64,000 nucleotides of DNA from Microbacterium lushaniae (GTDB taxonomy: Bacteria; Actinomycetota; Actinomycetes; Actinomycetales; Microbacteriaceae). Where the stretch lies: positions 2,852,001 through 2,916,000 of the forward strand of contig NZ_CP044232.1 of NCBI RefSeq assembly GCF_008727775.1, written 5' to 3'. Made by a program: the position numbers and the translations under genes. Position 1 is the first letter of the stretch, and the number at the start of each line of letters is the position of its first letter. The notes beneath the pieces are model-generated. The model did no database searches. It saw only the letters and a program-made list of their open reading frames with translations, and was not told the origin of the DNA. Below, in pieces: positions 1 through 16,596 of the stretch.

Positions 1-1056
1 CCCCGAGTTCGCCTCGATCGCCTCGGCCACCCGCCCCCCGGCGGTGGTGACGGTGTCTTTCGTGCGGTACTCGAATCGCCGGCCGCCGGCCTGCACGAAC
101 TCGAAGTGGCTCAGGAAGAACTCCAGCCGCCGCCGCACCTGCGCCGGCACCGGCACGGCCCGGATGGCCTCCCGCATCCGGGTCTGCTCGTCGGGTGCGA
201 AGACGAGCTCCTCCGGAACGTGCTCCTCGGGCTTCTCCCCCGCCTCCACCCGCGCCACCAGCTCGTCGAAGAACCGGCTGTTGAAGCTCGCGGCCTGGAC
301 GGTGACGTCCATCCGGTCGCGCAGGGCCTGGATGACAGGGAACGTGCCGCCGCCGGCGTCGTCGTTGGCGGTGAAGTACCAGCTCTCCACGCCCGAGGGC
401 GGGGCCGTGCGGTGCATCTGGTCGTGGCTCTCGACGTATCCCTCGGCCACCATCGTCAGCAGCGCCGATTGGGTCTTGGTCGGGATGCGGTTGTACTCGT
501 CGATGATCTTCACCGGCCGGGTGAGCCATTCGCGCCAGGCGATCCCGATCTCGGCGAGACTCGCGGCGTTGACGAGGTCGCGCGGCAACGGGATCCCGAC
601 CAGGTCGCTGATGGTCAGCTGCGGCTGACCCTGCTGCACGCCGCGGCGCACCTCCTCGGCCGATGACCCTGCCAGCACGCCCATCAGCACGGCGACGGTC
701 GTCTTGCCGCGGCCGGGGCCGCCCACCAGGAGACACTTGCCGCCGACGGCGAAGGTGAGCAGCGGAAGCAGCACGTTCGAGGAGAACGACGGCTCGGTGG
801 GGAGGGTCAGCTCCGCACCGGCGTCGCCGAGCGGGAAGGTCACCGGGGCGCCGGTGGAGAACTCCACGTCGTAGTACGGCGAGATGACGGCGCGGTTGAC
901 GATCCAGTAGTAGGTGCGGCGGAGCTTCTCATCCAGCGGCACGTGGGCGTCGGCCTCGGGAGTGCGGAAAAGGTCCTCCGCGGTGAGCTGCGATACCCCG
1001 GCGGATGCTGCGGGGGTCGTCGGTGACTCGGAGACCTTGTGCCAGCGATCCGCCAT
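1..1056 (-). CDS. MoxR-family AAA+ ATPase (C-terminus cut by window edge)
   Basis: An uninterrupted minus-strand frame runs from ATG at 1056 to the window edge, giving 352 residues without a stop. Walker A is GGPGRGKTT at about residues 112-120 and a Walker B-like VKIIDEYNR lies near 182-190, followed by a sensor-like stretch (WYFTANDD). This is the MoxR/CbbQ type of AAA+ ATPase. Such proteins usually work with a von Willebrand-type partner to remodel or load metal into client proteins; the partner would lie outside the window. A TAGGCT -10 box ends six bases before the ATG, suggesting a leaderless transcript separate from the upstream nadR. The family call is firm; the client is unknown. Confidence 0.85.
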   Translation of the reverse strand, partial: MADRWHKVSESPTTPAASAGVSQLTAEDLFRTPEADAHVPLDEKLRRTYYWIVNRAVISPYYDVEFSTGAPVTFPLGDAGAELTLPTEPSFSSNVLLPLLTFAVGGKCLLVGGPGRGKTTVAVLMGVLAGSSAEEVRRGVQQGQPQLTISDLVGIPLPRDLVNAASLAEIGIAWREWLTRPVKIIDEYNRIPTKTQSALLTMVAEGYVESHDQMHRTAPPSGVESWYFTANDDAGGGTFPVIQALRDRMDVTVQAASFNSRFFDELVARVEAGEKPEEHVPEELVFAPDEQTRMREAIRAVPVPAQVRRRLEFFLSHFEFVQAGGRRFEYRTKDTVTTAGGRVAEAIEANSG

Positions 1057-1062
1057 TTCGTC

Positions 1063-1068
1063 AGCCTA
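1063..1068 (-). promoter_or_regulatory. Leaderless-type -10 box for the MoxR-like ATPase
   Basis: On the minus strand TAGGCT is followed by six bases and then the ATG at 1056. The hexamer overlaps the nadR stop codon (TAG at 1068-1066). The same spacing recurs at other genes of this window. No convincing -35 was sought; this is a pattern-based inference. Confidence 0.5.
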
Positions 1069-2136
1069 TCGGCCGGCCCGGCGCTGCAGCGCGAGCTGCT
1101 CGTCCATCGGGCGCCCCTCCAGCGGCGCGGTGAAAGACAGCGCCCGCGCGAGCGCGTCGTGCACCGCGGGGAGCGCCGTGCGCACGCGGGCCGGGACGTC
1201 GCCACCCACCTCCAGCCACGGGACGGGCTGCCCCTGGAGCACCGCACGGAACCTCGCCTGCATGCGGGCGCGGATGTGCTCGCCGTCGCGGGTGCCGTCC
1301 TGGACGAAGGGGATCTCGTCACCGGTGAGCACGTACAGCGCCGGCCGGTGCTCGGCCGCACGCGCGAGGATGCGAGGTGCGGGCGCACCCATGTACCGCT
1401 CATGCCACAGCGCCGTCGCGAGCACATCGGTGTCGCACACGAGCACCGGCGCGGGCGTCTGCCGCAGCGCTGCATCCTCCATCGCGATCTGCCGGTCGAC
1501 GATGAGGTCGAACTCGTCGCCGCGCCAGGGTGCGGCGAGCCCGCCCTCGCGCGTGATCGACAGCTCGCGGCCGTACTCGGGCACCCAGAGCGTGCCCAGT
1601 TCGTCGGCGAGAGCGGCGGCCAACGTCGTGGAACCGGTCGATTCGGCACCGAGCACGACGATGCGCGGGGTCAGGGTCGCACGCACCGCGGGCGCGAGCT
1701 CGTGCCAGTGGGCGGCGAGGTCGGCGCGCACCGCCGCGCCCGACACCGGGTTGCGCACGCGGCCTGGATCCACCTGCACCCATGTCGCCCCCAGGCGTCG
1801 TGCGAGCTCCTCCCCGTAGGCATCCGACGTGAAGACGGCGTCGACGGGCGCATCGAGCGCGCCCGCGATGATCCTCGTGTGGGCATCCCACGCCGTCTCG
1901 GATGCGAAGTCCACAGGCGTGTCGTCGACGAACGCGACGACGTGGGCGGTGGGGTGCTCCTCGCGGATCCACTGCTCCCGCGCCGCGACGGTGACCGATT
2001 CCACGGACGCCCCGATGAGCTCGACGGTCAGCCGATCACACGCGCGCAGGGCCGTGCGGATCAGGTGGGAGTGCCCCGCGTGCAGCGGGTAGAACTTCCC
2101 CACGATGAGGCCGTGGCGAAACCGCCCGTCAGGCAC
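1066..2136 (-). CDS. nadR: NadR-like NMN adenylyltransferase / ribosylnicotinamide kinase
   Basis: Bifunctional NAD salvage enzyme. The N-terminal nucleotidyltransferase domain starts GLIVGKFYPLHAGHSHL with the HxGH signature (HAGH). The C-terminal kinase half begins around residue 170 with GAESTGSTTLA. It would phosphorylate nicotinamide riboside and adenylylate NMN to NAD. It directly follows and slightly overlaps pnuC, the transporter for its substrate, which strongly supports the role. An ATG at 2166 is also in frame but would overlap pnuC by 38 bp. The GTG at 2136 gives an 8-bp overlap and places the HxGH domain close to the N-terminus, so it is preferred. Oddly, the P-loop has Ser where Walker A normally has Lys. 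Confidence 0.85.
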   Translation of the reverse strand: MPDGRFRHGLIVGKFYPLHAGHSHLIRTALRACDRLTVELIGASVESVTVAAREQWIREEHPTAHVVAFVDDTPVDFASETAWDAHTRIIAGALDAPVDAVFTSDAYGEELARRLGATWVQVDPGRVRNPVSGAAVRADLAAHWHELAPAVRATLTPRIVVLGAESTGSTTLAAALADELGTLWVPEYGRELSITREGGLAAPWRGDEFDLIVDRQIAMEDAALRQTPAPVLVCDTDVLATALWHERYMGAPAPRILARAAEHRPALYVLTGDEIPFVQDGTRDGEHIRARMQARFRAVLQGQPVPWLEVGGDVPARVRTALPAVHDALARALSFTAPLEGRPMDEQLALQRRAGR

Positions 2137-2746
2137 GCGCGTCCACCGCACCCGGTGCCGCCGCATCCGCCGCAGCGTCAGAGCCCACCCGTCGCCAGGA
2201 ACGCCACCCGAACACGCACAGCGCGATGAACAGGGCGTACAGGGCGGCGACCACCCACAGGCCGGTGACGACGGACAGTGCGACGAACGCGATGTCCACC
2301 CCGATCCAGACGAACCAGTTCTCCAGCCACTTGCGGTTGAGCATGTACTGCGCCACGAGGCTCGCCGACGTCGTGGCCGCGTCGGCGACGGCGACCTGCG
2401 AATCGGTGAAGGTCGACAGCACCCACGTCAGCAGGGCGGCGCCGGCGACGCCCACGACGACGAGCCACAGGATCGCGCCGCGGGGCGTGCGCGCGATGTA
2501 GTGGCGGTCGTGTTCGACGCCGCGCGTCCATCGCCACCACCCGTGCACGCCGAGGGCGAGGTACACCAGCTGCAGGGCGGCCGCGGCGTACAGGCCGGCG
2601 GGGAGGAAGACGGCGAGGAAGACGACGTTGTTCGCGATGCCCAGCGGGTACGTCCACACGTTCCGGCGCGCAGCCAGGAACACGCACGCGGCGCCGGTGG
2701 CGAACCCGACGATCTGCATCCACTCGGCGAGAATCCACTCGATCAC
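2129..2746 (-). CDS. pnuC: PnuC-type nicotinamide riboside transporter
   Basis: A 205-residue, strongly hydrophobic protein with several predicted membrane helices and the PnuC-like segment NVWTYPLGIANNVVFL followed by ALGVHGWWRW. PnuC proteins facilitate nicotinamide riboside uptake, driven by intracellular phosphorylation. The nadR-like kinase follows in the same direction with overlapping ends, so the two form a vitamin B3 salvage operon. The GTG start lies six bases after a TAGGCT -10 box, as in leaderless actinobacterial genes. Confidence in family and operon role is high. Confidence 0.9.
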   Translation of the reverse strand: MIEWILAEWMQIVGFATGAACVFLAARRNVWTYPLGIANNVVFLAVFLPAGLYAAAALQLVYLALGVHGWWRWTRGVEHDRHYIARTPRGAILWLVVVGVAGAALLTWVLSTFTDSQVAVADAATTSASLVAQYMLNRKWLENWFVWIGVDIAFVALSVVTGLWVVAALYALFIALCVFGWRSWRRVGSDAAADAAAPGAVDARA

Positions 2747-2752
2747 CCGACG

Positions 2753-2758
2753 AGCCTA
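2753..2758 (-). promoter_or_regulatory. Leaderless-type -10 box for pnuC-nadR
   Basis: TAGGCT on the minus strand, six bases upstream of the pnuC GTG at 2746. There is no room for a ribosome binding site between them, so a leaderless mRNA is inferred. Confidence 0.5.
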
Positions 2759-2780
2759 GGGAACCGGCGGCGCCCCGCCG

Positions 2781-3767
2781 TCACACCGACGCGAGCAGCG
2801 CGAGGAGTTCGGGCGGCGCGACCGACGCCCGAAGGCCCGGGTCGATGAGGCGGCGGCATCCGTCGAGCTCGACGGTGAACGGCGCGGATGCGGGTTCGCC
2901 GGCGATCAGCGGATGCGCCACGGCCAGGCGGGTCGCCGAGCTGCGGCACGCGGGTGCGTCCGGGGCCGGGGAAGCCGCCGCGGACACGGCCGCACGGGCG
3001 TCGTCGACTCCGAGCCGGCCGGCCGCGGCGAACGTGCCCTGCCCCTCGGCGCCGGCCTCGTAGCGGCACACGAGGAGCCCGTCGACCTCCCCGGCGGAGG
3101 GCAGCGGAGCGGGCTCCCACGGGATCGTCGCGACCTCCTCGCGCGAGGGTGCGGGCGACGCGCCCATCCCCGCCACGTCCGAGAGGTCCGCCAGCACCAT
3201 GACCCCCGCCTGCGTCGCGCATCCAGCGGCCTCGGCGGCGCGGGACTCGAGGAGCATCGCGGGGGTGAAGGTCTCCTCGGTCAGCCGCAGGCGCTCGATC
3301 GCCGCGTTCACCGCAGCGACCGCACCGGGGGTGGGCTGACCGCATCCGTCCGCCGGGTAGGCGACCCGGATGTAGTGTCCCTGCGCGTCCGCGAGCCACA
3401 ACTCGGGCCCGGCGAATCCGATGGCCGTGCACGCGCCGAGCCACTGCGCCCCGTCGGGCTCGGCCAGCGCCGCCAGCAGCGGCCCGAGGTCGCCGTCGAA
3501 GCGTTCCAGCCGCGCGCCCGACCACGTGCCGGCGTCGTCCTCGTCGGCGGCGTACGGGTCGCACCGGTAGAGGGCGACCGGCTCGAAGCCGTCCGGCACG
3601 GCCCCGGACGCCACCGTGGAGCCGGCGCCGGGGAACGCTTCGGTGCACGCGATCTCCGCGACAGGGGTCGCATCCGGGCGCGGCGCCGGAAACCCGGGGA
3701 CGCCGGCGCAGCCGCTCAGCGCCGTGGCCAGCACGGCTCCGGCCAGCAGCATCCGTGCGCGCCTCAT
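2781..3767 (-). CDS. Putative secreted lipoprotein of unknown function
   Basis: A 328-residue protein with a lipoprotein signal: positively charged MRRAR, hydrophobic core, and lipobox LSGC ending about residue 20. The mature part is acidic, with about eight further cysteines, suggesting an exported disulfide-bonded protein. No catalytic motif was recognised. The ATG at 3767 is preferred over the GTG at 3773 because AGGGGGG lies at proper distance from it. The neighbours (pnuC upstream, divergent aspC) do not suggest a function. Confidence 0.65.
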   Translation of the reverse strand: MRRARMLLAGAVLATALSGCAGVPGFPAPRPDATPVAEIACTEAFPGAGSTVASGAVPDGFEPVALYRCDPYAADEDDAGTWSGARLERFDGDLGPLLAALAEPDGAQWLGACTAIGFAGPELWLADAQGHYIRVAYPADGCGQPTPGAVAAVNAAIERLRLTEETFTPAMLLESRAAEAAGCATQAGVMVLADLSDVAGMGASPAPSREEVATIPWEPAPLPSAGEVDGLLVCRYEAGAEGQGTFAAAGRLGVDDARAAVSAAASPAPDAPACRSSATRLAVAHPLIAGEPASAPFTVELDGCRRLIDPGLRASVAPPELLALLASV

Positions 3768-3846
3768 CGCCACCCCCCTTCACCACACGGTAGGCCACGG
3801 CCCGGCAGCGGCGGGCAACGACCCTGTAACGAACGCCGCGCGCCGG

Positions 3847-3852
3847 TAGGCT
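3847..3852 (+). promoter_or_regulatory. Leaderless-type -10 box for the aminotransferase gene
   Basis: TAGGCT followed by seven bases and the GTG start at 3860. This matches the arrangement at pnuC and the MoxR-like gene. Confidence 0.5.
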
Positions 3853-3859
3853 CGGTGCC

Positions 3860-5059
3860 GTGACATCCCGTGCCCCCCTCTCCCGCAAGCTGTCCGCGAT
3901 CGCCGAGTCCGCCACGCTGAAGGTGGACGCGAAGGCCAAGGCCCTGCAGGCCGCGGGGCGGCCGGTCATCTCCTACGCCGCCGGCGAGCCCGACTTCGCC
4001 ACACCGCAGTTCATCGTGGATGCGGCCGCCGAGGCGCTGGGCGACCCCGCGAACTTCCGCTACACCCCCGCGGTGGGTCTTCCCGTGCTGCGCGAGGCCA
4101 TCGCCGCCAAGACGCTGCGCGACTCCGGCCTGGAGGTCGAGGCGTCGCAGGTCATCGTGACCAACGGCGGCAAGCAGGCGGTGTACCAGGCCTTCCAGAC
4201 CGTGGTGAACCCCGGCGACGAGGTGCTGCTGCCCGCGCCGTACTGGACGACGTACCCCGAGGCGATCGCCCTGGCCGACGGCGTGCCGGTCGAGGTGTTC
4301 GCCGGCGCCGACCAGGAGTACAAGGTCACCGTCGACCAGCTCGAAGCCGCCCGCACCGACCGCACGACCACGCTCGTGTTCGTGTCCCCGTCCAACCCCA
4401 CCGGTGCCGTCTACACGCCGGAGGAGACCAAGGCGATCGGCGACTGGGCGCTCGCGCACGGCCTGTGGGTCATCACCGACGAGATCTACCAGAACCTCGT
4501 GTACGACGGGGCCCACGCCGCATCCATCGTCGAGGCGGTTCCCGACCTCGCCGGCCAGACGATCCTCCTCAACGGCGTCGCCAAGACCTACGCGATGACC
4601 GGATGGCGCGTGGGCTGGATGGTCGGGCCCGCCGACGCGATCAAGGTCGCCGCGAACCTGCAGTCGCACCTGTCCAGCAACGTCAACAACATCGCCCAGC
4701 GCGCGGCTCTGGCGGCACTGAGCGGCCCCCAGGACGAAGCGGAGGGCTTCCGCCTGGCGTTCGACCGGCGCCGGCGGCTCATCGTGTCGGAGCTGGCGAA
4801 GATCCCCGGGGTGAGCGTGCCCGAGCCGCTCGGGGCGTTCTACGTCTACCCCGACGTGACCGGACTCCTCGGCCGCGAGTGGCGCGGCACCACCCCGACG
4901 ACGTCACTGGAACTCGCCGACCTCATCCTGGAGGAGGCCGAGGTGGCCGTCGTGCCCGGCGAGGCCTTCGGCCCGAGCGGCTACCTGCGCCTGTCGTACG
5001 CCCTGGGCGACGACCAGCTGCTCGAGGGCGTCCAGCGCCTCCAGCGCCTCTTCGCCTGA
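3860..5059 (+). CDS. Aspartate aminotransferase-like PLP enzyme (class I)
   Basis: A 399-residue fold-type I aminotransferase. Visible features are the substrate/PLP segment YAAGEPDF near residue 40, [10 protein letters not shown] near 176-185, the cofactor Asp and Tyr in TDEIYQN (about 207-211), the Schiff-base Lys in [13 protein letters not shown] (Lys242), and the carboxylate-binding Arg in YLRLSYA near the C-terminus. This pattern fits actinobacterial AspC/AatA, interconverting aspartate and oxaloacetate, although related aminotransferases share it. Translation starts at GTG directly after a -10 box. It converges on murB, with a long inverted repeat between them. Confidence 0.88.
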
Positions 5060-9366: not shown

Positions 9367-9619
9367 AAGGGGAGGTTCGCGGCCCCCGGCGGCGGAAGCC
9401 ACTGCCGACCGGGGGCCGTCCTCCCCACGGGCCGAGAGACGCGGTGACCCGAACACCGGTCTGCGGCTGATCCGCGGGGGTCGAACACATCGAACGTATC
9501 CCGGCACGCTCGGCCGCCTTCGGCCGTTGACGCGGAGCGGGCGCACCTGATACACGCCCGCGGCGGCGCCGGACGAGAGAGACTGGATGCAGGCCCCTGC
9601 GGCCGATGACGGAGGAACC

Positions 9620-10882
9620 ATGACGATGCCACGCTCGACGGCGCTGCGCCAGACCCGCGCCGACTTCCCGTTCTTCCAGCGGCGCCCGGGACAGGTGTAC
9701 CTCGACTCCGCCGCGACGTCCCAGCCGCCGCGAGTGGTCCTGGATGCCGAGCGCACGTTCACCGAGACCGCCTACGCCGCCGTCCATCGCGGCGCCAGCG
9801 CCGCGACCGGGTCGGCGACCACGGCGTTCGAATCGGCGCGCGCCCGGATCGCGCGGTTCGTCGGCGCCGGCGACGACGAGATCGTGTGGACGGAGAACGC
9901 CACCGACGCCATCAACCTGCTCGCCTGGTCACTCACGGATGCGGCGCACGAGGGCGGCGACGGACCCTGGGTGCTGCATCCCGGTGACGAGATCGTCATC
10001 ACCGAGGCCGAGCACCACGCGAACCTCGTTCCGTGGCAGCGACTGGCCGCGCGCACCGGCGCCGTCCTGCGTGCCGTGCCGGTGGACGATGAGGGGCTGT
10101 GGACGATCGACGCGCTCGCGGGGGTCGTCTCCGATCGCACGCGGCTCATCGCGTTCGCGCACATCTCCAACGTGACCGGGTTCGTGGCCCCGGTCGAGGA
10201 CGTCGTCGCCCTGGCCGCCCGGCACGGCGCACTGACCTTCCTCGACGCCTGTCAGTCGGCGCCGCATCGCCCGCTCGACCTGCACGGACTGGGCGTGGAC
10301 TTCGCCGCCTTCTCCGCGCACAAGATGCTCGGCCCCACCGGTATCGGTGTGCTGTACGGTCGCGCGGCGCTGCTGAACGCGCTGCCTCCGGGGCGCACGG
10401 GTGGTTCGGCGATCACGACCGTCACGCTGGAGTCCGCGGGGTTCCTCCCGGCCCCGCACCGGTTCGAACCGGGCACGCAGCCCGTGGTTCAGGCCGTCGG
10501 CTTCGCCGCGGCGGCGGACTATCTCGCCGGACTGGGCATGCCGGCGGTCGCCGAACGCGAGCATCATCTCGCCCAGGCGCTCGTGGACACCGTCGTCCGG
10601 GTCCCCGGCGTGCGCATCATCGGTCCGGCGGCCGGGGCCGAACGCGCCGCGCTGGTCAGCTTCGTCGTCGACGGCGTGCACCCGCACGACGTCGGGCAGT
10701 TCCTCGACGACCGCGGCGTGACCGTCCGCACCGGCCACCACTGCGCCCAGCCGCTGCACCGCCGGCTCGGCGTGCCGGCCACGACCCGCGCCAGCGCCTA
10801 CGTCTACACCACCGACGACGACATCGCCGCCCTCGGCGAGGCCCTCGCCGAGGTGCGCGGATTCTTCGGAGCCGACCGATGA
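9620..10882 (+). CDS. sufS: Cysteine desulfurase SufS
   Basis: A 420-residue class V aminotransferase-fold enzyme that takes sulfur from cysteine for Fe-S cluster assembly. The PLP Lys lies in FSAHKMLGPTGIG, and the persulfide-carrying Cys is in RTGHHCAQPLH near the C-terminus. A perfect GGAGG (9611-9615) selects the ATG at 9620; an upstream in-frame ATG at 9587 lacks such a site. The stop overlaps the sufU start (ATGA). SufB, SufC and SufD are not in the window. Confidence 0.92.
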   Translation: MTMPRSTALRQTRADFPFFQRRPGQVYLDSAATSQPPRVVLDAERTFTETAYAAVHRGASAATGSATTAFESARARIARFVGAGDDEIVWTENATDAINLLAWSLTDAAHEGGDGPWVLHPGDEIVITEAEHHANLVPWQRLAARTGAVLRAVPVDDEGLWTIDALAGVVSDRTRLIAFAHISNVTGFVAPVEDVVALAARHGALTFLDACQSAPHRPLDLHGLGVDFAAFSAHKMLGPTGIGVLYGRAALLNALPPGRTGGSAITTVTLESAGFLPAPHRFEPGTQPVVQAVGFAAAADYLAGLGMPAVAEREHHLAQALVDTVVRVPGVRIIGPAAGAERAALVSFVVDGVHPHDVGQFLDDRGVTVRTGHHCAQPLHRRLGVPATTRASAYVYTTDDDIAALGEALAEVRGFFGADR

Positions 10883-11313
10883 GCGACCTCAACGACCTGT
10901 ACCGCGAGGTCATCCTCGATCACAGCCGGCGTCCGGTCGGCCGCGGCGACGTGTCGGGGTTCGCCACGACCCACCACGAGCTGAACCCCACGTGCGGGGA
11001 CGAGATCACCCTCGGCGTGGAGATCGCCCCCGACGGCCGCATCAGCGCGCTGGCGTGGGAGGGATCGGGATGCAGCATCTCCACCGCATCCGCCTCGGTC
11101 ATGTCCGATCTCGTGCGCGACGGCACGCGGGAGGAGGCGGCCGGACTGATCGCGGATTTCCGCGCGCTCATGCGCGGCGGAGGCGAGATGGAACCCGCCG
11201 AGAGCCTCGGGGATGCGGCGGCGTTCGCGGGGGTCTCCCGCCTGGTGACGCGCGTGAAGTGCGCGATGCTGCCGTGGGTGGCGCTGGAGGCGTGCCTGCG
11301 CACGGCGCCGTAG
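10879..11313 (+). CDS. sufU: SufU zinc-dependent sulfurtransferase
   Basis: A 144-residue IscU-fold protein with the three conserved cysteines at about 39 (NPTCGDE), 65 (GSGCSISTAS) and 128 (RVKCAMLPW), plus Asp41. In Gram-positive SUF systems SufU accepts the persulfide sulfur from SufS. The start codon overlaps the sufS stop by four bases, so translation is coupled. The length fits the family. Confidence 0.93.
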   Translation: MSDLNDLYREVILDHSRRPVGRGDVSGFATTHHELNPTCGDEITLGVEIAPDGRISALAWEGSGCSISTASASVMSDLVRDGTREEAAGLIADFRALMRGGGEMEPAESLGDAAAFAGVSRLVTRVKCAMLPWVALEACLRTAP

Positions 11314-11353
11314 CGGCGCATCCGGGGCCTGGCTGACGTCGCGGGACCGCGGG

Positions 11354-11381
11354 TTGCACGAACGGCGACCGCCGATATGCT
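11354..11381 (+). promoter_or_regulatory. Promoter of the cysteine leader/cbs-metB unit
   Basis: TTGCAC (11354-11359) and TATGCT (11376-11381) are 16 bases apart and resemble -35 and -10 boxes. The GTG of the leader peptide follows six bases after the -10, so the mRNA would begin at or next to this start codon. Confidence 0.6.
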
Positions 11382-11387
11382 GGTGCC

Positions 11388-11414
11388 GTGCAGACCTGTC
11401 GTTGTTGTCGCTGA
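11388..11414 (+). CDS. Cysteine-codon leader peptide (MQTCRCCR), attenuator for cbs-metB
   Basis: An eight-codon frame starts at GTG and ends with TGA. Three of its eight residues are Cys, two of them adjacent, within C-R-C-C-R. All three Cys codons are TGT although TGC would be expected in this GC-rich genome. It is leaderless and lies 64 bases upstream of cbs. Cys-rich upstream frames in mycobacteria sense cysteine: ribosomes stall when Cys-tRNA is scarce, changing RNA folding and opening downstream translation. GC-rich self-complementary stretches (GCGCGTTCGCGC at 11415 and CGCGCTCCGCGCG further on) lie between the stop and the cbs start, as needed for such a switch. Confidence 0.75.
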   Translation: MQTCRCCR

Positions 11415-11486
11415 GCGCGTTCGCGCCGCCTCCGACGACCTCTGCCCACCCCGCGCTCCGCGCGACCCACTGAAGGAATGCACCCC

Positions 11487-12869
11487 GTGCGCTACGCCTC
11501 GAGCGTGACCGCCCTCATCGGCGACACCCCCCTCGTCCGTCTCAACCGTGTGACCGACGGCATCGCCGCCACCGTGCTGGCGAAGATCGAGTTCGTCAAC
11601 CCCGGCGGATCGTCCAAGGACCGCATCGCGGCCAACATCATCGACGCCGCCGAACGCAGCGGCGCCCTCCGCCCTGGGGGAACGATCGTGGAGCCGACGA
11701 GCGGCAACACAGGTGTGGGCCTGGCGCTGTTCGCGCAGCAGCGCGGCTACCGCTGCGTGTTCGTCGTGCCCGACAAAGTCTCCGACGACAAGCGGGCGGT
11801 CCTGCGCGCGTACGGCGCCGAGGTCGTCGTCGCGCCCACCGCCGTGGCACCGGAGGACCCGCGCTCGTACTACAGCGTCTCCCGCCGCATCGTCGAGGAG
11901 ACCCCGGGCGCGTTCATGCCCAACCAGTACGACAACCCCAACGGCCCCCGCAGCCACTACGAGAGCACGGGCCCGGAGATCTGGCGCGACACCGACGGGG
12001 CGATCACCCACTTCGTCACCGGCGTCGGAACGGGCGGCACCATCAGCGGCACGGGGCGCTACCTCAAGCAGGTCTCCGGCGGCGCCGTGCGCATCGTGGG
12101 TGCAGATCCGGAGGGTTCGGTGTACTCCGGCGGCACGGGTCGGCCCTACTTCGTCGAGGGCGTCGGTGAGGATTTCTGGCCCGGCGCGTACGACCCCACC
12201 GTGGTCGATGCGGTCGAGGCCGTCAGCGACGCCGAGTCGTTCGCGATGACGCGCCGCCTCGCCCGCGAGGAAGGGCTCCTCGTCGGCGGTTCCAGCGGGA
12301 TGGCCGTGGTCGCGGCACTGCGGGTGGCGCGGGGCCTGCCCGCCGATGCGGTGGTCGTCGTGATCCTCCCCGACAGCGGCCGCGGATACCTCGCCAAGGT
12401 CTTCTCCGACCCGTGGATGCAGACGCACGGGTTCGCGGTGGATGCTCCGTCCTCCGGCCCCACGGTTTCCGATCTGCTCGCCGAGCGCGGCGAGCGCGCG
12501 CTGCCGGTGGTCGCGGCATCCGCCACTGCCGGTGACGCGCTGGAGGCGCTCGGCCGCGCGGGCGTGGACGTTGCCCCCGTGGCATCCGCCGCCGATCCCG
12601 TGCTCGGCGAGGTCTCCGGGGCCGTGCACGCCGCGACCCTGCGCTCGGCCTCCCCCGGGACGCCCGTCGCCGACCTCGCGGGCGACCCGCTCCCGCTCGT
12701 GGGTGTGGGGGCGCCGGCGGCTGAGGCGCTCGAGCTGATCGCTGCCTCCGGTGCCGTGCTCGTGGCATCCGCCGGTCGCCCGGTCGCCGTACTCACGACC
12801 GCCGATCTCCCAGGCTCCCCCGCCACCACGCCCACGCCCACGCCCGCCTCCGAAGGAGCCTCCTCGTGA
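11487..12869 (+). CDS. cbs: Cystathionine beta-synthase
   Basis: A PLP fold-type II enzyme joining homocysteine and serine (or acetylserine) to cystathionine. The PLP Lys is in NPGGSSKDRIA (about residue 44), the phosphate loop is GVGTGGTISGT, and the substrate loop is EPTSGNTG. About 320 catalytic residues are followed by a degraded regulatory region of about 140 residues resembling a CBS-domain pair, rich in Ala. GTG at 11487 is preferred: AAGGA at 11473-11477 lies nine bases before it, whereas it abuts the in-frame ATG at 11478. The stop overlaps the metB start (GTGA). Expression is probably set by the upstream cysteine leader. Confidence 0.9.
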   Translation: MRYASSVTALIGDTPLVRLNRVTDGIAATVLAKIEFVNPGGSSKDRIAANIIDAAERSGALRPGGTIVEPTSGNTGVGLALFAQQRGYRCVFVVPDKVSDDKRAVLRAYGAEVVVAPTAVAPEDPRSYYSVSRRIVEETPGAFMPNQYDNPNGPRSHYESTGPEIWRDTDGAITHFVTGVGTGGTISGTGRYLKQVSGGAVRIVGADPEGSVYSGGTGRPYFVEGVGEDFWPGAYDPTVVDAVEAVSDAESFAMTRRLAREEGLLVGGSSGMAVVAALRVARGLPADAVVVVILPDSGRGYLAKVFSDPWMQTHGFAVDAPSSGPTVSDLLAERGERALPVVAASATAGDALEALGRAGVDVAPVASAADPVLGEVSGAVHAATLRSASPGTPVADLAGDPLPLVGVGAPAAEALELIAASGAVLVASAGRPVAVLTTADLPGSPATTPTPTPASEGASS

Positions 12870-14071
12870 CCGCCGATTCCGCCGCACGTCCCTCCGACCA
12901 CCCGGCTTCCGACGGGCTTTCCTCCGACGGCCTGGCCTTCGACAGCCTCGCCGTGCACGCCGGGCAGTCGGCCGATCCCGGCACCGGCGCGGTCATCCCG
13001 CCCGTGCACTTCTCCACCACCTATGTGCAGGACGGCATCGGCAACCTGCGCGCCGGCTACGAGTACGGCCGCAGCGGAAACCCCACGCGCACGGCGCTCG
13101 AAGAGCAAGTGGCCGCGCTCGAGGGCGGTCGGCACGGCGTGTCGTTCGCCTCCGGACTCGCCGCCGAAGACGCGCTGCTGCGCGCGGCCCTGCGGCCGGG
13201 CGACGAGGTGCTCCTCGGCAATGACGTCTATGGCGGCACGTACCGGCTCCTCTCCCGCATCCTCGGGCCGTGGGGCGTGTCGCTGCGGGTCGTGGACATG
13301 AGCGACCTCGAGGCCGTCGCGGCGGCGATCGCCGTGCGCGCGCCGCAGATCCTGTGGGTGGAGACCCCGAGCAACCCCCTCCTGCGCGTGACCGACATCG
13401 CCGGGCTCGCGCGCCTCGGCCACGAGGCCGGCGCGCTCGTGGTGGTGGACAACACCTTCGCCTCCCCCGCACTGCAGCGCCCCCTCGCCCACGGCGCCGA
13501 CGTCGTCGTGCACTCCACGACGAAGTACCTCGGCGGCCACTCCGACGTCGTCGGCGGCGCACTGGTGCTGAACGACGATGCCCTCGCCGAGCAGGTGCGC
13601 TTCCTGCAGTTCGCCGCGGGCGCGGTGTCGGGACCCATGGACGCGTGGCTGACCTCCCGCGGCATCAAGACCCTCGGGCTGCGGATGCAGCGGCACAGCG
13701 AGAACGCCCTCGCCCTCGCGCGCTTCCTCCACGAGGACGACCGTGTCGATCGCGTGTACTACCCGGGTCTCCCCACGCATCCGGGCCATGACATCGCCGC
13801 AGCCCAGATGTCGGCGTTCGGCGGCATCGTCTCCGTCGCACTCGCCGACGCCGCATCCGCCCGCCGTTTCGCGGAATCCACGCGCCTGTTCCAGCTCGCC
13901 GAGTCGCTCGGCGGGGTGGAATCGCTCGTGAACCACCCCGACGAGATGACGCACGCGTCGGTGCGCGGCACCGAGCTGGCCGTGCCCGCGGAGGTCGTCC
14001 GCCTGTCGGTCGGCATCGAGTCGCTCGACGACCTCCGCGCCGACCTCGACCAGGCGCTTTCCGCCCGCTGA
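12866..14071 (+). CDS. metB: Cystathionine gamma-synthase/lyase (MetB/MetC family)
   Basis: A 401-residue Cys/Met-metabolism PLP enzyme. The family signatures are AVHAGQSADPGTGAVIPPVH, YEYGRSGNPTRTALE and the Schiff-base Lys in VVHSTTKYLGGHSD. The first 25 or so residues form a Ser/Ala/Asp-rich extension. As the partner of cbs it most likely acts as cystathionine gamma-lyase, finishing the methionine-to-cysteine route, though gamma-synthase activity cannot be excluded by sequence. GTG start, coupled to cbs, with AAGGAG 12 bases upstream. Confidence 0.9.
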   Translation: MTADSAARPSDHPASDGLSSDGLAFDSLAVHAGQSADPGTGAVIPPVHFSTTYVQDGIGNLRAGYEYGRSGNPTRTALEEQVAALEGGRHGVSFASGLAAEDALLRAALRPGDEVLLGNDVYGGTYRLLSRILGPWGVSLRVVDMSDLEAVAAAIAVRAPQILWVETPSNPLLRVTDIAGLARLGHEAGALVVVDNTFASPALQRPLAHGADVVVHSTTKYLGGHSDVVGGALVLNDDALAEQVRFLQFAAGAVSGPMDAWLTSRGIKTLGLRMQRHSENALALARFLHEDDRVDRVYYPGLPTHPGHDIAAAQMSAFGGIVSVALADAASARRFAESTRLFQLAESLGGVESLVNHPDEMTHASVRGTELAVPAEVVRLSVGIESLDDLRADLDQALSAR

Positions 14072-14229: not shown

Positions 14230-16596
14230 TCAGGCGAGCGCCGCGCCCCACCGCCACTCGGCGACGGCGGGGTCGTCCTCCCCGTGCTCGCGCGTGTAGG
14301 CGCGAGCGCGGGCGCGACGGTCCAGGAGGTCCTGCCGCAGCCCGGCGTAGCGGGTCGCGCCCCCGGGCACGCGGTCGAGCACGTCGATCGCGAGCTGGAA
14401 GCGGTCGAGGTCGTTGAGCATCACCATGTCGAACGGAGTGGTGGTGGTCCCGCGCTCCTTGTACCCGCGCACGTGGAGATCGTCGTGCCCGTGCCGGCGG
14501 TAGGTGAGGCGGTGCACGAGCCACGGATAGCCGTGGAAGGCGAAGATCGTCGGCACGTCGGGCGGGAAATAGCCGTCGAAATCGGCGTCGCTCAGACCGT
14601 GCGGATGCTGATCCTCCGACTGAAGGCGCATGAGGTCGACGACGTTGACGACCCGGGTGGACAGATCGGGCGCGTACTGGGCCAGGAGCGCGGCCGCGGC
14701 GACGGTCTCGTGCGTGGGGACATCCCCGGCCGCCGCGAGCACCACGTCGGGAGCTCGCCCCTCCGTCTCCGTCCCCGCCCACGCGAAGGTGCCCAGCCCG
14801 CGGCGGCAGTGCGCGATCGCCTCGTCCATGCCCAGCCACTGCGGCGAGGGCTGCTTGCCGGCGACCACGACGTTGATGTAGTCGACCGAGCGCAGACAGT
14901 GGTCGTACGTGCTCAGCAGCGTGTTGGCGTCGAAGGGCAGGTACACCCGCACGATCTCGGCGCTCTTGTTCATCGCGACGTCCAGGAATCCCGGATCCTG
15001 ATGCGTGAAGCCGTTGTGGTCCTGGCGCCAGACGTGGCTGGACAGCAGATAGTTGAAACTCGCGATCGGCGCACGCCACTCCAGCGGCCGCGACGCCTCC
15101 AGCCACTTGGCGTGCTGGTTGAACATCGAATCGACGATGTGCACGAACGCCTCGTAGCTGTTGAACACCCCGTGCCGCCCGGTGAGGAGATACCCCTCGA
15201 GCCACCCCTGGCACTGGTGCTCGCTGAGGACCTCCATCACCCGCCCCGCACGGGCGAGGTGCTCGTCCAGCGGTGAGAACTCCGCGTTCCACTGCTTGTC
15301 GGTGGCGTCGTAGACGGCCGGCGCGATCCGGTTGGAGGCGGTCTCGTCGGGCCCGAACAGCCGGAAGGTGTGCGGATTGCGCCGGATGACCTCGGCGAAG
15401 AAGCGCCCCAGCACGGCGGTGGCCTGGCCGTCCTCGGCCCCCGGCGCGCCGACCGGCACGGCGAAGTCGCGGAAGTCGGGCAGGTCGAGGTCGGTTCGGA
15501 TGGTGCCGCCGTTGGCGTACGGCGTGGCCGACATCCGCCGCGGGCCCTCGGGCGCGAGCGCGACGGTGTCCGGCAGGGGCGTCCCGTCGTCGTCGAACAG
15601 CTCCTCCGGCCGGTACGACCGGAGCCACTCCTCGAGCTGGCGGAGGTGCTCGTCGGTATCGCGCGCGGAGGGCAGCGGCACCTGGTGCGCGCGCCAGGTG
15701 CCCTCCACCGGCAGCCCGTCGACCTGCTTCGGCCCGGTCCACCCCTTCGGCGAGCGCAGGATGATCATGGGCCAGATCGCGCGCTCGGTGGACCCGTCCT
15801 CCCGCGCGGCGCGCTGGATGTCGCGGATGCGGTCCAGCGCCGCATCCAGTGCCTCGGCGAAGACCCGGTGCACGTGGTCCGGCTCGTCGCCGGCCTCGAA
15901 CGACACGAGGATGGGCTCGTGCCCGTACCCGCGCATCAGGCTCAGCAGCTCGTCGTCGGGGATGCGGGCCAGGAGCGTCGGGTTGGCGATCTTCCAGCCG
16001 TTGAGGTGCAGGATCGGCAGCACCGCCCCGTCGGTGGCAGGGTCGATGAACTTGTTGCCGTGCCATCCGGTCGCCAGCGGCCCCGTCTCGGCCTCACCGT
16101 CGCCCACGACGCAGAAGACCGTCAGGTCGGGGTTGTCGAAGGCCGCTCCGTAGGCGTGGCTGAGCGAGTACCCCAGCTCACCGCCCTCGTGGATGGAGCC
16201 CGGAGTCTCGGGCGCGGCATGGCTGGGGATGCCGCCGGGGAAGGAGAACTGGCGGAACAACCGCCGCATCCCTTCCTCATCCCGCGTGATCCGCGGATAC
16301 ACCTCGGTGTACGTGCCGTCCAACCACCCGCACGCCACGACGCCGGGCCCGCCGTGACCGGGCCCGGCGACGTACAGCGCGTCGAGGTCGCGCTCGCGGA
16401 TCGCACGGTTGGCGTGGGCGTAGACGAGGGTGAGCCCGGGAACGGTGCCGAAGTGACCGAGCAGCCGAGGTTTCACGTGCTCCCGCGTCAGCGGCTGGCG
16501 CAGGAGCGGATTGTCCAGGAGATAGATCTGCCCGACGCTGAGGTAGTTGGCCGCCCGCCACCACGCATGCAGGCGCCGCAGGGTCTCGTCGTCCAT
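14230..16596 (-). CDS. xfp: Xylulose-5-phosphate/fructose-6-phosphate phosphoketolase
   Basis: A 788-residue ThDP enzyme splitting xylulose-5-P (and often fructose-6-P) with phosphate into acetyl-P and a shorter sugar phosphate. It starts with the family region [18 protein letters not shown] and has GPGHGGPG near residue 79. The ThDP/Mg site is [20 protein letters not shown], and [16 protein letters not shown] follows. The C-terminal third has the family's [15 protein letters not shown] and [18 protein letters not shown]. The length is standard. It stands alone, converging on metB across a type A repeat. Confidence 0.94.

Follow-up and report, generated by a model that had tools for sequence, protein, structure and literature searches.

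Poly-Cys frames of mycobacteria precede sulfate-assimilation genes. Leaderless polycysteine short-ORF attenuators of mycobacteria have reportedly been tested by Canestrari et al. in 2020 (Mol. Microbiol. 114:93). The part of Shell 2015 (PMC4633059) considered here describes conserved Cys-rich leaderless frames in mycobacteria, including a Cys-rich frame before cysA2. The part of Seliverstov et al. 2005 (PMC1262725) considered here predicts Cys leaders for the cys operons of Mycobacterium and Propionibacterium, with no terminators, and places a candidate Cys leader before cbs of Bifidobacterium longum. In the 64-kb stretch of Microbacterium DNA analysed in this study (the window), a short Cys-rich frame precedes cbs and metB. 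We take this frame, with a probability of roughly three in four, to be a cysteine-responsive leader peptide, that is, a ribosome attenuator of cbs-metB.

The cbs-metB locus and its short frame

An earlier note on this DNA had described an eight-codon frame, M-Q-T-C-R-C-C-R, located six bases past a TATGCT box and with TGT as every Cys codon. The frame was confirmed, with a GTG start at 11388-11390, a TGA stop at 11412-11414, TGT in 3/3 Cys codons and a gap of six bases between TATGCT and GTG 11388. The features of the locus are as follows.

11354..11381, + strand: putative promoter, read directly, with TTGCAC at 11354-11359, a 16-base spacer and the -10 box TATGCT at 11376-11381
11388..11414, + strand: leaderless-type short frame GTG CAG ACC TGT CGT TGT TGT CGC TGA, read directly
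11388..11397, + strand: 5' end of the frame, predicted partner of the cbs Shine-Dalgarno (SD) region, from duplex prediction and a comparative swap test
11396..11411, + strand: Cys-codon arm, complementary to the post-stop stretch; the wobble bases of its three Cys codons are U in relatives
11433..11440, + strand: conserved downstream box CGACGACC (CGACGACCCCGACAG in many relatives), proposed partner of the Cys-codon arm
11472..11477, + strand: SD GAAGGA of cbs
11487..12869, + strand: cbs, cystathionine beta-synthase, from TIGR01137 for 11478-12869, with the start set by conservation
12866..14071, + strand: metB-like enzyme of the cystathionine gamma-synthase/lyase family, from NF005871; its start overlaps the cbs end

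The TTGCAC hexamer at 11354-11359 is a weak -35, and a consensus scan of the window region returned no promoter. Terminator-like sites in the window region numbered zero, and the Rfam 15 models gave no match to 11200-11700 up to an E value of 1. The cbs gene (11478-12869) scored 524 bits against NCBIfam TIGR01137 (cut-off 510), and the metB-like gene scored 620 bits against the NF005871 cystathionine gamma-synthase model (cut-off 513). The earlier note correctly placed the frame upstream of cbs; the cbs start that it used, ATG 11478 (63 bases past the leader stop), is probably wrong. Since the proteins of relatives open with V-R-Y-A or M-R-Y-A, which is met here at GTG 11487, the cbs start is probably this GTG, nine bases further on. 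GAAGGA (11472-11477) has a 9-base spacing to GTG 11487.

On the flanks, a sufS-sufU pair occupies 9587-11313, directly upstream of the leader; SufS and SufU each scored above the NCBIfam cut-off, and sufU ends at 11313. On the other side, a 788-aa frame on the minus strand (14230-16596) is convergent with metB and looks phosphoketolase-like by eye.

The chance occurrence of such a frame was assessed with a scan rule of 3-15 codons, an ATG or GTG start and a position 6-7 nt after TANNNT. Three frames in the 64 kb, both strands included, fitted the rule, and only that at 11388-11414 had at least three Cys. Dinucleotide shuffles of the window (n = 100) contained on average 1.48 rule-fitting frames, and none of the 100 yielded one with three Cys. 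Over the 1.13 million strand-bases of the loci fetched from other genomes, 82 frames fitted; 72 were situated within 300 nt before cbs, and 56 of these 72 carried at least three Cys. The 10 frames away from this region had no Cys at all, a control that is small because rule-fitting frames are rare.

Conservation of the leader and descent of cbs

A search with the cbs protein covered 99 genomes of the genus, and the 75 genomes with a best hit of at least 276 bits were taken further; the 24 genomes with weaker hits only (at most 274 bits) stand outside all leader counts. A leader frame at leaderless spacing was present in 55/75 Microbacterium genomes, the window's own included, and absent in 20/75. 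In all the 55 leader genomes, a -10-like TANNNT box precedes the start codon, which is GTG in 55/55, by 6 (43 genomes) or 7 bases (12 genomes); the stop is TGA in 54 and TAA in 1. With the cbs start corrected, the leader stop and the cbs start are 67-100 bases apart. The core peptide L-T-C-R-C-C-R is near-invariant. Under a detection rule that demanded two Cys, at least two Cys, mostly as CRCC, were found in 55/55, and no genome of the leader cbs lineage was without a hit. The first core Cys was kept in 53/55 (Leu in 2), the second in 55/55 and the third in 50/55 (not Cys in 5), while Arg5 was kept in 54/55 and the last Arg was replaced in 4 of 55. Conservation of the frame and of its Cys codons in relatives, the test set beforehand, was thereby found throughout one cbs lineage (55/55). 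Furthermore, the exact 21-base core ACSTGTCGNTGTTGTCGCTGA occurred once per genome in 32/99 genus genomes, all 32 occurrences lying just before cbs as judged by eye. The pattern TGYTGYMGNTRA, tried in the window's own genome, gave 70 matches vs 43 for a control pattern and was discarded as too loose.

The 20 leader-less cbs genes form a second cbs lineage, in which the own start codon of cbs is positioned 6 or 7 bases past a TANNNT box in 20/20 cases (e.g. L003, L008 and L013). A cbs tree built from the protein alone, with one row of only 183 aa and an unsure root, separated the 55 leader rows from the 20 leader-less rows by one branch with a support of 100/100. The groups with and without a leader thus coincide with the two sides of the protein tree, and leader presence characterises one cbs lineage; the 55/20 split does not stand for 75 independent events because one change on the cbs tree suffices. 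As for the neighbouring genes, metB came next after cbs in all 30 genus loci that extended far enough (11/11 leader and 19/19 leader-less loci), and sufS and sufU were located upstream of the leader in 1/55, the window's own locus only. Therefore, the leader belongs to cbs-metB.

The codon choice in the leader was uniform: the core Cys codons of the 55 Microbacterium leaders were TGT in 158/158, a count inflated by the relatedness of the genomes. In the cbs coding sequences of 74 genus loci of both types, the Cys codons were TGC in 60/60 and TGT in none. Some leader peptides have a Pro-Cys-Cys-like C-terminal extension, in which TGC accounted for 11/17 codons and TGT for 6. The Arg5 codons vary among CGC, CGT and CGG, and Thr3 and Leu2 likewise show synonymous variation.

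For the comparison outside the genus, a set of 80 cbs loci, in which L047 has only 96 bases before cbs, left 74 fetched loci once 6 titled Microbacterium were removed. A Cys-rich frame with a 6-7 base spacing and another peptide was found before cbs in 13 of these 74 loci. Their peptides include MLLSLCCR, MVLCTRLCCC, MNISRSCCRR and MLAPLSCCCR, and their Cys codons were TGT in 28 and TGC in 6 cases. Since a Cys-rich frame stands nearly unchanged before two sulfur-metabolism genes in many Microbacterium, the ribosome probably uses the leader frame to detect a shortage of cysteine. The cysteine-leader interpretation of the earlier note is supported.

Neither PF01507 (PAPS reductase) nor PF01077 (sulfite/nitrite reductase) had a match in the window's own genome, and the controls for the two families were positive in 14/14 and 11/14 known genomes, respectively; thus, the formation of cysteine from sulfate by the usual route is probably impossible in this organism. 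Judged from the gene content, its cysteine source would be reduced sulfur, or homocysteine via cbs and metB. Actinobacterial MetB has gamma-lyase activity as well. A cysK-like gene of the same genome is at 1170432-1171325 on the minus strand, and the stretch fetched for it held no poly-Cys leaderless-type frame. Nor did the approximately 5 kb before cysH-like genes, taken from 20 of the 37 genomes that have at least two PF01507 matches, contain such a frame; G013 (one weak PF01507 match) was excluded from this set. We also weighed a tie between the leader and a lost capacity for sulfate reduction, and dismissed it: at least two PF01507 matches were present in 23/55 leader and 5/19 leader-less genomes, in a tally that counted G030, the twentieth leader-less genome, among the remaining 25 genomes, 9 of which had at least two matches.

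Predicted RNA pairing between the frame and the cbs start

The downstream box was CGACGACC in 30 of the 55 leaders, CGCGACC in 12 and a short CGACC in 10, and 3 leaders had none. In the minimum-energy folds, 5 or more bases of the Cys-codon stretch were paired with the post-stop region in 55/55 leaders, 3 or more of the first 12 frame bases were paired close to the cbs start in 49/55, and at least 2 bases of the SD window were paired to the frame in only 28/55. The wobble U of the core Cys codons was predicted to pair with A in 115/158 codons and with G in 4, and to be unpaired in 39. The z-scores of the 55 leader folds averaged -3.0 and were below -2 in 43, with a value of -1.44 for the window's own fold. 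When the post-stop region was shuffled in 50 leaders, the paired bases decreased from 13.9 to 10.2 in the Cys stretch and from 6.0 to 4.2 at the 5' end. The pairing between the Cys-codon arm and the post-stop region reached a mean of -15.1 kcal/mol vs -10.7 kcal/mol for shuffled partners; it is nearly invariant, with little covariation, and 197-703 of 5000 swaps were as good.

The 5' end of the frame gave a different result. In the swap test, the strongest of the pairing evidence, its pairing with the own SD window (mean -10.6 to -10.2 kcal/mol) beat that with swapped partners. Swaps as good as the own pairing amounted to 82/5000 for n = 10 leaders (<75% identity), 6/5000 for n = 20 and 0/5000 for n = 34 and n = 55, where the identity limits lessen the relatedness among leaders without removing it. 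For two control segment pairs the own pairing had no advantage, with 835-3437 and 3119-4643 of 5000 swaps as good. An earlier swap test, with wrong start points and some broken segments, had returned 0/2000 for all 55 leaders and 215/2000 for 11 non-redundant ones, a weaker outcome than in the corrected test. In the window, the predicted duplex joins GUGCA (11388-11392) with UGCAC (11479-11483) and CCU (11395-11397) with AGG (11474-11476). The predicted duplexes differ by species: that of L127 pairs UGUCCUGU with ACAGGACA, and in that of L120 the partner of GUGUUG is a CAACAC immediately ahead of the SD.

The folding energies were then compared with and without a ribosome modelled at the first Cys codon. 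Opening the SD became at least 1 kcal/mol cheaper in 18/55 leaders and dearer in 8, with little change in 29 (Wilcoxon p 0.12). For the window, the opening cost was 2.2 kcal/mol free vs 2.9 kcal/mol stalled, that is, no clear switch. In 50 leaders, the unpaired share of the SD rose on stalling from 0.33 to 0.39 with the native linkers, and the rise was larger with shuffled linkers, from 0.24 to 0.37. RNAalifold on a plain MAFFT alignment reported 0 consensus pairs, perhaps because the SD columns were misaligned. The proposal that complementary stretches downstream switch access to the cbs start, also made in the earlier note, is accordingly only partly supported, the comparative pairing being in its favour. 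Only 18/55 leaders, the window not among them, show the thermodynamic switch clearly, and the switch step is therefore inferred. Likewise, the energy model does not give a clean switch in every leader, so the masking of the cbs SD is put forward as what the comparative test and the mycobacterial precedent would favour.

Proposed control of cbs-metB and related systems

We propose that ribosomes start on the leader frame at the extreme 5' end of the mRNA that carries cbs and metB. Given ample Cys-tRNA, the ribosome would read the eight codons and depart, after which the Cys-codon stretch would pair with the conserved post-stop box and the first codons with the SD region of cbs; with its SD region so paired, cbs would be poorly translated. 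When Cys-tRNA is scarce, the ribosome would stall on the Cys codons and cover both 5' arms, the ribosome-binding site of cbs would be freed, and cbs-metB would make cysteine from homocysteine. The analysis itself establishes the frame, its spacing and conservation, the fixed codons, the gene context and the comparative pairing signal; the transcription start of the leader, its translation, the stalling, the switch and the response to cysteine are inferred.

The same sensor may act through Rho-dependent attenuation, in which Rho would load on the C-rich, G-poor linker once the ribosome has left the frame, and end transcription ahead of cbs, unless blocked by a stalled ribosome. The linker is C-rich in 55/55 leaders, with a mean (C-G)/(C+G) of 0.295 (range, 0.15-0.43), and there is no intrinsic terminator, the longest T-run in the 55 linkers being 5. 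Moreover, Rho has been proposed for cysteine leaders in Actinobacteria in the part of PMC1262725 considered here. The same index for the 80 nt before 19 leader-less cbs averaged -0.044, although this composition is a poor control because several of these regions hold the end of the upstream gene. However, Rho would leave unexplained why the 5' end of the frame tracks the SD region, and we regard this route as unlikely. That the thermodynamic switch is weak in most leaders would also fit a constitutive leader, in which the frame does no more than bring ribosomes close to cbs or shield the mRNA and the Cys codons are incidental. Such a role is improbable, given that the second, first and third Cys codons were kept in 55, 53 and 50 of 55 leaders, in a constant position ahead of an operon of the cysteine pathway, and that Cys-rich frames occur before cbs in other genera too.

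The least probable alternative, to which we give very little credence, is that the signal is not Cys-tRNA and that the LTCRCCR peptide itself causes ribosome arrest or acts as a ligand for metal, heme or redox signals. The retention of Arg5 in 54/55 leaders with CGC, CGT or CGG codons, and the synonymous variation at Thr3 and Leu2, would speak for it; nevertheless, the peptides outside the genus change (CCRR, CCCR, LCCC) and the Cys runs stay. In addition, the free wobble base of Arg5 is looped out internally in the pairing proposed by eye, so RNA pairing would explain Arg5 too. The cysteine-responsive leader peptide therefore remains the preferred reading.

The length of the cbs enzyme differed between the two lineages. 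The protein had 318-385 aa in 40/41 leader genomes with a readable stop, a count that covers 41 because 14/55 leader-type cbs run off the fetched stretch, and 455-488 aa in 19/19 leader-less genomes. The Pfam CBS domain was found in 0/3 leader-type and 3/3 leader-less proteins examined. The window's own cbs is the exception, with 463 aa and a C-terminal CBS match below the Pfam cut-off, and in the tree its protein is set apart from the remaining 54 of leader type. A tentative and rather doubtful reading is that the control of cbs in Microbacterium moved from the protein to the mRNA with the loss of the C-terminal CBS module, UGU being locked by pairing and reading together, since each wobble U both pairs with the downstream box and is read. 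The window would then represent an early stage, as would be expected if the leader was gained before the module was lost. Against this shift, it may be one event in one lineage, on a tree of unsure root. Furthermore, for the 13 cbs found with a leader outside the genus, the match to the query extends to residue 443-454, so that these enzymes look full length, which weakens it.

If the cysteine-responsive reading is right, leaderless-frame cysteine sensing would extend beyond mycobacteria and be tied to the conversion of methionine to cysteine, in a genome that apparently lacks sulfate reduction. The unusually rich set of 55 natural variants, whose paired core is 100% UGU, lends itself to comparing how one RNA stretch can combine a coding role with that of a structural arm.

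Compared with a classical trp-type transcription attenuator, the locus differs in having 0 terminator-like sites between the leader and cbs. The uORFC-8-2 cysS leader of Rhodobacterales, in the part of PMC8632094 considered here, resembles it in placing tandem Cys codons in a stem arm before a cysteine-related gene, but differs in its AUG start, Cys at codons 14-15, dominant UGC and a U-run consistent with an intrinsic terminator. The cbs leader of Bifidobacterium longum, as far as it is described in the part of PMC1262725 considered, is likewise a short frame with Cys codons near the stop and no terminator; that part presents a single cbs case and includes Leifsonia xyli in its genome set with no cbs leader reported for it. 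Among the matches listed from the open-licence literature, no such leader is described in Microbacterium or before its cbs-metB.

The closest likeness is to the mycobacterial attenuators, which share the leaderless-type start, the clustered Cys codons and the position directly before a cysteine-metabolism operon; in the mycobacterial sources, as far as they were covered, stalling is likewise proposed to free the downstream ribosome-binding site. Unlike them, the present leader occurs in another order of Actinobacteria, stands before cbs-metB, and has eight codons with the near-invariant LTCRCCR, and none was found before the cysH-like genes (approximately 5 kb, 20/37 relatives with at least two PF01507 matches). 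The leader of Microbacterium cbs-metB is new, while the kind of switch is already known from mycobacteria.
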